From assembly GCA_902567115.1 (NCBI GenBank), contig CACFLF010000004.1:1-36060 (forward strand): 36,060 nucleotides of DNA. The letters are read 5' to 3'. This document shows, one piece after another, positions 13,201-15,896 of this stretch. The notes beneath the pieces were generated by a model. The model was given only the letters and a program-made list of their open reading frames with translations, searched no databases and was not told the origin of the DNA. Position 1 is the first letter of the stretch. Every line of letters starts with the position of its first letter. A program made the position numbers and the translations under genes. Source of the DNA: an uncultured Alphaproteobacteria bacterium. Lineage in GTDB: Bacteria; Pseudomonadota; Alphaproteobacteria; Methylaequorales; Methylaequoraceae.

Positions 13201-14033
13201 TTTTTTAGTATTTTGATGATTTCATTGATGTGAGAATCCTCTGGCATTATTCCAAACCACCGATAAAATGATTCTGCAGCTTGCCGAGCAAGCATATAAA
13301 ACCCGTTTGTATTCTGTAGCTTATTATTAACTGCTAACCTCATAAGAGGAGTATGAGCTGGTTCATAAACTATGTCATAAACCAACGCTTTTTTGTTCAT
13401 TGAAGCAAGCTCGATAGCAAGAGGATTCTTTCCATTCATCCCGCATGATGTACAGTTTACAAGCAAGTCGACGTCATTCATAGAGTTAGAGCTTAGATGT
13501 GAAATTTCGAAAATTTTTTTTGCTTGAGTAAATTTATCAAAGTGCTTAATTAGCTTTACGCCTGAAGATTTTGTCCTATTAATTATTCTTATAATATTTG
13601 GACTTAAGTCTATTAAACTTGAAACAATTCCGTAGGCAGCTCCTCCTGCTCCTATACACATTACATTGGTATTGGAATTGATATTGAAACTTAAATCATT
13701 CTTTAGAGAGGATATAAATCCAATTCCGTCTGTATTTGCTCCAATTATCTTGTCTTTTTCCTTGTAAACGGTGTTTATTGCATTGCTTCGCAAAGCAGAT
13801 TCTTCCACTTCATCTACAAAATCTGTCATTATTTTTTTATATGGAATTGTAACATTCAAACCTTGGATGTTGCCATCTCTTACTTGCTGTATTAAGTCCT
13901 TAATTTCTGTTTTATCTACTTCTAGCTTATCGTAACTTGCATTGAGCGAATATTTTTTAATCCAACAATTGTGTATTACTGGTGATCTCGAATGTTTAAT
14001 CGGTTTGCCTATAACGTATAATTTATTTTCCAT
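13197..14033 (-). CDS. aroE: Shikimate dehydrogenase
   Basis: LYVIGKPIKHSRSPVIHNCWIKKY, GLNVTIPYKKIM, GANTDGIGFISSL, GAGGAAYGI and NTNGFYMLARQAAESFYRWFG motifs. Confidence 0.97.
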   Translation of the reverse strand: MENKLYVIGKPIKHSRSPVIHNCWIKKYSLNASYDKLEVDKTEIKDLIQQVRDGNIQGLNVTIPYKKIMTDFVDEVEESALRSNAINTVYKEKDKIIGANTDGIGFISSLKNDLSFNINSNTNVMCIGAGGAAYGIVSSLIDLSPNIIRIINRTKSSGVKLIKHFDKFTQAKKIFEISHLSSNSMNDVDLLVNCTSCGMNGKNPLAIELASMNKKALVYDIVYEPAHTPLMRLAVNNKLQNTNGFYMLARQAAESFYRWFGIMPEDSHINEIIKILKK

Positions 14034-14634
14034 GTTTGATCTTCTTTATTAAATCTTTTATTGGGAAACCTAAGATCGTTTCTCGATCTCCATCGATTAT
14101 ATTTAAAAACTTATGCTTTGAATTCTCTTCAATTTTATATGATCCAACAGTCGTAAGGACAGTTTTTTTGTTATTTTTCACATACAATTTTATATCATTT
14201 TGGGGAATATTTGCAAAAAACAATGATGCCGCTTTAACCTGTTGAAAGAAAAACTTTCCTCTTTGAATAACATAAATAGAACTATATAGTTTATGAATTT
14301 TATTTCTTAAAAATAATAATTTTTTCGTTGCCTCCTCGAGACTTTTTGGTTTACTGATTACTTTGTTTTCACATATTAGAATTTGATCTGAAGCAATAAT
14401 AATTTCATTAGGATAATTTTCTAAAACTGATAACGCTTTTTCTCTTGCAATTCTAACCGCCATTTCTTCTGGATTTGTTTTTTGTTTTTTGTATTTTTCC
14501 TCTTCTACATTATGTGGAACATTAATAACGTCCGAAAAATATTTATTCAACATTTTATTTCGCACTACACTTGACGAAGCGAGGATAACTTTTGAGAACT
14601 TTGTGTGTTTCTTCTTTTTTTCTCGTTCTACCAC
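14023..14634 (-). CDS. maf: Maf family nucleotide pyrophosphatase
   Basis: SKVILASSSVVRNKMLNKYF, IIASDQILICENKVISKPKS, VGSYKIEENSKHKFLNIIDGDRETILGFPI. The first ~46 residues of the track ORF (start 14772) do not look like Maf; an in-frame GTG at 14634 is a plausible start. Confidence 0.88.
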   Translation of the reverse strand: MVEREKKKKHTKFSKVILASSSVVRNKMLNKYFSDVINVPHNVEEEKYKKQKTNPEEMAVRIAREKALSVLENYPNEIIIASDQILICENKVISKPKSLEEATKKLLFLRNKIHKLYSSIYVIQRGKFFFQQVKAASLFFANIPQNDIKLYVKNNKKTVLTTVGSYKIEENSKHKFLNIIDGDRETILGFPIKDLIKKIKHGK

Positions 14635-14891
14635 TATTCTTTCTATTTTGTCCTTTTTTTGTCCACAAGTTGACAATGTGTACATATTTCTTAACACTAT
14701 AATAAACACTATTATGTTTTTTTTTTCCACTTTCTTCGTTTTTGTTTTCGTTGCCTTCCAACATTTTACCACATTTTTTCCACAAACTTATTACTTCATT
14801 TCCTGTTGGTAATCTGTTAATAAAGTTTATCAACTTAATTATATGTACAACAACAACAACAACCTTATTATTAATAAAACTTAAGTAGTAG
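14635..14891. other. Candidate chromosomal replication origin (oriC) in the maf-hemE spacer
   Basis: DnaA-box-like 9-mers on the same strand: TTGTCCACA (14659-14667) and TTTTCCACA (14776-14784), each one mismatch from TTATCCACA; TTTTCCACT (14723-14731) and TTTACCACA (14765-14773), each two mismatches. AT-rich stretch follows at ~14811-14890. Flanking genes diverge (maf-aroE-coaE leftward, hemE-hemH-hemJ-rho rightward). The Caulobacter and Rickettsia origins are described beside hemE. Confidence 0.65.
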
Positions 14892-15896
14892 ATGAAAATT
14901 GTTAACAGAATTCCCATTTGGTTTATGCGACAAGCAGGCAGATATCTCCCCGAATATATGGAAATTAGGGCAAAGAATTCTGACTTCCTAAAACTTTGTC
15001 TTGATCCTGACCTCGCCTCAGAAATATCACTTCAACCCCTAAAACGTTTTGATCTTGATTTTATTATTCTCTTTTCAGATATTCTTGTAATCCCTCATGC
15101 TCTTGGACAAGAGGTCACATTTTTAAAAAATCACGGCCCTCTTTTGAAAAGTATTTATTCCAAAAAGGATCTCGACTATAAGAACTTAAACAAAGCTCTA
15201 GACAAGATCTCTAATATTTTTGAAACCATAAAAATACTAAACTCAAAAAAAAAAAAAAAAAACTTAATTGGTTTTTGTGGAGGTCCATTTACCGTTCTAA
15301 ATTACATGATAGAGGGCGGTACATCTAAAACCCATAGTAAAATAAAAACATTCATAAAGAACAAGAAAGATGAAGCTAATGACATAATTAAAATAATTAC
15401 TGAGATTTCAATTGAATATCTAAAAAATCAAATTGAAAATGGGGCAAACTACGTTCAGATTTTTGAATCGTGGGCGGGGCTCTTAGAAAACGAAGAATAT
15501 ATAGATTTTATAATAAAACCAAATCAACAAATTAGCAAAGAAATAAGAGAATTCTCAAAACCAACGAAAATAATTCACTTTCCAAGAGGCTCACGGAAAA
15601 ACTATAAAATATTTACGGAAGAAGTGAAGTGTGATGTACTATCTCTAGATCAAACCTATCCAAAAGAATTGCTAAGCCTTCTTAGAGAAAAAAGAATAAC
15701 TGTTCAAGGAAATTTAGACCCGCAAGAACTATTAAAAGAGGGAGAACGGGTAGAAGAAAAAACGAAAGAAGTTTTAGAAAAATTCAAAAAAAATAACCAT
15801 ATATTTAACTTATCTCATGGGATATTACCGAAAACTAAAATAAGTAATATCGAGAAAGTAATAAAAGTAGTGAGAGATTATGAAACTTCCAAATAA
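14892..15896 (+). CDS. hemE: Uroporphyrinogen decarboxylase
   Basis: IPIWFMRQAGRYLPEYMEIRAKNSDFL, FDLDFIILFSDILVIPHALGQEV, GFCGGPFTVLNYMIEGG, FNLSHGILP motifs. Confidence 0.97.
   Translation: MKIVNRIPIWFMRQAGRYLPEYMEIRAKNSDFLKLCLDPDLASEISLQPLKRFDLDFIILFSDILVIPHALGQEVTFLKNHGPLLKSIYSKKDLDYKNLNKALDKISNIFETIKILNSKKKKKNLIGFCGGPFTVLNYMIEGGTSKTHSKIKTFIKNKKDEANDIIKIITEISIEYLKNQIENGANYVQIFESWAGLLENEEYIDFIIKPNQQISKEIREFSKPTKIIHFPRGSRKNYKIFTEEVKCDVLSLDQTYPKELLSLLREKRITVQGNLDPQELLKEGERVEEKTKEVLEKFKKNNHIFNLSHGILPKTKISNIEKVIKVVRDYETSK

Follow-up and report, generated by a model that had tools for sequence, protein, structure and literature searches.

The question raised by this locus was whether the spacer between maf and hemE is the chromosomal replication origin, oriC, as a sequence-only reading had proposed. 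The window, i.e. the whole stretch of 36,060 nucleotides that was analysed, is one of the contigs of a MAG (G000; 900 kb, 64 contigs, 60% complete) from a streamlined, small-genome alphaproteobacterium, and it ends 21 kb past hemE. The ORF list gave the gene order coaE–aroE–maf/hemE–hemH–hemJ–rho, which is common to the family and to many named alphaproteobacteria as far as the loci reach; the maf/hemE order itself is retained in 29 family genomes. The flanking genes do diverge, as had been claimed. The left one, maf, occupies positions 14023–14634 of the minus strand, as assigned from the ORF list, Pfam Maf (PF02545) and synteny in the 29 genomes, and the right one, hemE, occupies positions 14892–15896 of the plus strand (Pfam URO-D, PF01208; E-value 2e-100). 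The GTG at 14634 had been taken provisionally as the start of maf, which is plausible because the core of the Pfam Maf domain begins near 14592, and this codon is probably the start. The spacer thus delimited spans positions 14635–14891.

A place beside hemE is ordinary for an origin, since a hemE-linked origin is already known for the class. The precedents that had been cited, Caulobacter and Rickettsia, are borne out by the literature, in which both origins are hemE-linked and the flanking genes vary among known cases (PMC1914354). Like these, the present site lies directly upstream of hemE, within a neighbourhood of rho, hemE, maf, aroE and coaE, and comprises a cluster of DnaA boxes, an AT-rich stretch and a switch in skew. 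It differs in its other flank, which is maf here and COG1806 there, the latter not being universal; the ORF list contained no frame between maf and hemE that could be COG1806. A further difference from the Caulobacter Cori is that the spacer lacks both a full CtrA site and an IHF consensus but carries a (CAA)5-AT-TAG element. The search of the spacer for TTAA-N7-TTAA returned a single site with one mismatch, at 14691, which is at chance level, and IHF was scored by consensus, so that a degenerate site is possible.

All four DnaA-box-like 9-mers reported earlier were recovered on the plus strand from the sequence and a pattern scan, and their conservation in close relatives was followed in an alignment of the spacer from 13 genomes of the genus. 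Well kept were TTGTCCACA (14659–14667), which is mostly TTTTCCACA across the genus, and TTTTCCACT (14723–14731), which is retained in most of it. Roughly half of the species keep the box TTTTCCACA at 14776–14784 and the others have a TTATTAACA-like variant in its place, whereas TTTACCACA (14765–14773) is private to the source genome and probably incidental. Loss of the 9-mers from close relatives had been named as a finding that would count against the origin, and three of the four proved to be conserved in the genus. Two weak boxes were also located, namely TGTTAATAA in reverse orientation (14815–14823, minus strand), which barely varies in the genus alignment, and a proximal one, TTATCAACT (14827–14835, plus strand), with two mismatches. 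Single near-matches mean little, because one-mismatch boxes over the whole window are at chance level (37 found against 33 expected); what counts is clustering, and the spacer holds the sole run of four box-like sites within 130 bp in the window. Genome-wide counts of exact TTWTCCACA likewise failed to single out the spacer, whereas clustering did so. When 68 to 364 kb of contig per relative were scanned for at least three boxes per 130 bp on one strand, every relative had one such cluster 190–290 bp upstream of hemE. Clusters occurred once per contig in G007 (320 kb), G011 and G014, and twice in G020 (364 kb) and G002 (160 kb), the second one of G020 being at 293.9 kb.

Composition skew was assessed on the long contigs of relatives, given the fragmentation of the source replicon. 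The plus strand of the window had been described as T-rich to the left of the spacer and A-rich to its right; the change in AT skew at hemE is real (−0.18 to +0.20), but within the window it mostly tracks gene direction. Gene direction was corrected for by modelling the third-codon-position GC skew of each gene as leading or lagging. A skew minimum mapping elsewhere had been named as grounds for abandoning the origin, and in the relatives' contigs the GC-skew minimum or the strand-corrected switch was found at or near hemE. The cumulative GC-skew minimum on the 364-kb contig of G020 lies 7 bp from the hemE start, and the strand-corrected switch was placed at −57 bp (G014), +976 bp (G002) and −7.8 kb (G020) relative to hemE. 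The leading-strand effect is significant in each of these three genomes, with 0 of 2000 permutations reaching it. The same permutation test gave no significance for G007, G011 or the window alone, and the switches at −17.5 kb in G007 and at +995 bp in the window are each non-significant by themselves. A pooled fit over 677 genes had its optimum at −6 kb from hemE, with a range of about −7 to +1 kb; the interval from 0 to +1 kb was only 1.4 log units below this optimum, and a fall of 8.5 units followed between +1 and +2 kb.

These data bear on the alternative that the clustered boxes serve DnaA titration or regulation and that the origin is located elsewhere, e.g. near parS or at the dnaA locus. 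In several relatives, the minimum of the raw cumulative skew is found 8–28 kb to the right of hemE, and parS is on that same right-hand (rho) side. Where found in family genomes, parS is typically a pair of sites ~1.9 kb apart (about 1.92 kb), and the pairs that share a contig with hemE are 5–30 kb from it (G002, G007, G008, G009, G011, G014 and others); no parS was found in G000. However, the raw minimum tracks gene direction, whereas after strand correction the break coincides with hemE and the fit loses more than 8 log units beyond +1 kb. Save for the G020 cluster at 293.9 kb, there is also no other repeated box cluster there. As a switch point, the dnaA locus was rejected by 6–18 units, fitting worse by 6.4, 13.0 and 17.6 log-likelihood units in the three genomes with dnaA on the hemE contig. 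We therefore regard a titration or regulatory site as very unlikely. The location of the origin rests on the relatives' skew, the box cluster, the proximity of parS and the maf/hemE synteny in the 29 family genomes, which together uphold the earlier inference, and positions 14635–14891 are very probably the chromosomal oriC. This fixes the position of the origin for an uncultured lineage, as is needed by growth-rate estimates from read depth. In G000, dnaA, dnaN and recF are adjacent and on a separate contig from hemE (G000:C14; dnaA at L157:3732–5165), and the longest dnaA ORF begins with TTG.

In the 29 family genomes that have both flanks, conservation within the spacer is highest not at the boxes but immediately ahead of hemE, in a stretch that contains a CAA-AT-TAG element that the sequence-only reading had overlooked. 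That reading had recorded an AT-rich stretch running up to hemE, which is present, but this understated the region. It begins with a (CAA)5 array (14848–14862, plus strand), read as five TTG units on the minus strand and a candidate array for single-strand capture by DnaA. There follow an AT core (14865–14882), which is the putative unwinding region and overlaps the least stable 20-mer of the spacer (14865–14884, within the lowest 0.3% of the window), and AAG-TAG-TAG (14883–14891, plus strand), a trio-like repeat that ends at the hemE start codon. The succession of (CAA)5, an AT tract (often TATATATATA) and TAGTAG(TAG) is nearly invariant in all 29 genomes, and TAGTAG itself is present in 22 of them (31 occurrences against 1.6 expected). 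With rare exceptions, the exact CAA 15-mer is found once per family genome, at hemE, and the genomes that lack it have a one-triplet variant in the array, e.g. CTA or CCA. Two extra exact 15-mers were observed in the family, at L196 (G015:C9) and L197 (G031:C11), neither accompanied by the AT-TAG part; the (CAA)n matches away from hemE in G043 and G056 were dismissed as coding sequence. In most of the genus, the weak proximal box TTATCAACT is separated from the array by exactly 12 bp; although weak in most relatives, it is a perfect TTATCCACA in G011/L006. The arrangement of box, 12 bp, CAA array and AT core is extremely conserved, nearly unique and of defined polarity, with the proviso that all conservation and enrichment statistics given here are inflated by the kinship of the genomes.

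The composite was sought in 385 genomes of the class and was found at hemE, again between maf and hemE, in the own family and in two others, f23 (G053, G332, G409) and f139 (G200), for which HemE identity, where complete, is only 37–39%. In G200, a near-perfect box, TTATTCACA, precedes the array by 3 bp. The loci of these streamlined families (L285, L286, L284 and L293) have the composite with up to five TAG repeats. One open-access library of papers yielded no match joining CAACAACAAC with a replication origin and DnaA. Overall, this is an ordinary place for an origin, with an unusual, very conserved candidate unwinding element.

A different function would be that of a hemE promoter or 5′ leader, for instance an unstructured CAA translation enhancer, that merely adjoins the origin. 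In the genus, the element ends at the hemE start codon, and a promoter-like TGTACA-16-TATTAT overlaps it at 14844–14871, but such matches are no more frequent than chance would give (3 against 2.3) and it is the would-be promoter spacer, i.e. the CAA array, that is conserved, not the hexamers. The element is, moreover, essentially unique in each genome, the comparable arrays of other alphaproteobacteria sit 55–290 bp upstream of hemE and beside a DnaA box, and the 12-bp spacing from the box would be left unexplained. A promoter or leader is consequently an improbable account of the element as a whole, although AAG-TAG-TAG may be merely part of the hemE leader.

These arrays were studied upstream of hemE in 59 other alphaproteobacteria, for which all 16 X-N-Z triplet patterns were compared with dinucleotide shuffles. 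C-N-A was the top-ranked pattern (z=13; runner-up 6.1), and its arrays are preceded by a DnaA box in forward orientation (2.23 mismatches, with 3.47 expected; about 9 sd). Many of these bacteria have a box, (CTA/CAA/CCA)n and AT-rich DNA at the equivalent place, and only 24 of the 59 have three or more perfect triplets, or the equivalent, in an array. CTA, CAA and CCA are combined in one register, as in CGA CTA CAA CTA CTA CTA or CTA CTA CAA CAA CTA. Read on the opposite strand, such arrays are T-N-G, in which the TAG of the DnaA-trio alternates with TTG. A triplet array therefore accompanies a DnaA box in many alphaproteobacterial origins, and TAG-type and TTG-type units seem interchangeable, which would connect the DnaA-trio of B. 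subtilis with the TTGT motif of E. coli, usually treated as different.

From its motif, polarity and conservation, we infer that the element is a module for DnaA loading and unwinding, and a variant of the DnaA-trio or of the E. coli TTGT motif. The DnaA of G000 has canonical domains according to Pfam, including a canonical box-recognition domain. In the proposed mechanism, it would bind three plus-strand boxes (14659, 14723 and 14776) together with the weak proximal one at 14827, and would then extend 12 bp rightward onto the minus strand of (CAA)5, with one DnaA per TTG triplet. The AT core beside hemE would open for helicase loading, and two forks would depart, one through maf and the other through hemE. 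Capture of the TTG strand of the array by DnaA is the reading towards which we lean, on sequence grounds.

The module resembles the B. subtilis BUS in its order of box, short spacer, triplet array and AT-rich DNA, with the same polarity (PMC8287927, PMC10721633). A box, albeit weak, is found within 16 bp of the array (14827–14835), and its gap of 12 bp falls within the published peak of 10–13 bp for the box-to-array spacer (PMC8287927, PMC10721633). Unlike the TAG triplets there, which have a middle A, the TTG units here have a middle T, so that the five of them do not provide the three or more N-A-N triplets of the captured strand; this middle-A rule was measured in B. subtilis (PMC8287927, PMC10721633). 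In that species, the middle A of the TAG-type trios contacts Asn187 of DnaA (PMC10721633), which is Tyr in the DnaA here. At the residue aligned with Asn187, nearly all the alphaproteobacteria read have Tyr and one has Ser, and other classes have N, Q, S or A. Because of this Ser and the variation among other classes, Tyr187 as the cause of a TTG code was set aside as only a lead.

The E. coli DnaA requires TTGT and TTATT on the T-rich strand (PMC5742627), and the minus strand of 14827–14891 likewise has TTGT repeats and TTATT, 5′ of TGTGGA-type boxes and with the same polarity to them. In contrast to the E. coli ssDUE, TTG forms a perfect five-unit array on the box side here, and an IHF consensus site is absent from the spacer.

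The TAG repeats offer a route on the plus strand, along which DnaA would load from a reverse box at the hemE start in the manner of B. subtilis or T. maritima, with CAA as a distal extension. TAGTAG is strongly over-represented in the family, as given above, and is followed in most relatives by a reverse box, TATGGATAA, TGTTGATAA or TGTTAATAA (mean of 1.83 against 2.68 mismatches). In T. maritima, the eTrio consists of three TAG repeats that are essential (PMC10316083), and the two systems share a tandem TAG beside an AT-rich region; here, however, TAG is at the hemE start and on the strand opposite to that expected from the left boxes. The reverse box is also poor in G000 (TGTTAACAG). A class-wide inverted trio plus box on the right-hand side had to be discarded: beyond the three families, TAG shows no enrichment (31 against 30.2) and that of the reverse box is weak (2.71 against 3.07 mismatches), which limits this half to those families, whereas the left box and C-N-A array are class-wide. 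We thus consider loading from the right unlikely and retain capture of the TTG strand as the preferred reading.

It is likewise doubtful that AAG-TAG-TAG is a second capture site, facing the opposite way. The combined arrangement, in which two convergent capture arrays would flank the AT core on opposite strands, TTG x5 on the minus strand from the left boxes and TAG x2–5 on the plus strand from the reverse box at the hemE start, is of similarly low probability. Were it true, each strand would be captured separately and two oppositely directed helicases would be set up in one symmetric module; an alphaproteobacterial DnaA with Tyr at the Asn187 position would then read T-N-G, uniting the TAG code of B. 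subtilis with the TTGT code of E. coli.

Two further stretches deserve mention. Between 14776 and 14823, TTTTCCACA-AAC-TTATTACTTCATTTCCTGT...CTGTTAATAAA hardly varies across the genus and constitutes a second block of box plus triplets, upstream of the CAA array. It includes, 3 bp after box 14776, the trio-like TTATTACTT (14788–14796; AAG-TAA-TAA on the minus strand), which is conserved in the genus. AAG-TAA-TAA satisfies the published BUS rule of at least three N-A-N triplets, but 188 of 300 shuffles do too, and such a match is therefore no evidence in AT-rich spacer DNA. Lastly, hemE contains an in-frame run of 18 A (15245–15262; six Lys codons) that is missing from 11 relatives of the genus and is either a slippage-prone tract or an assembly error.
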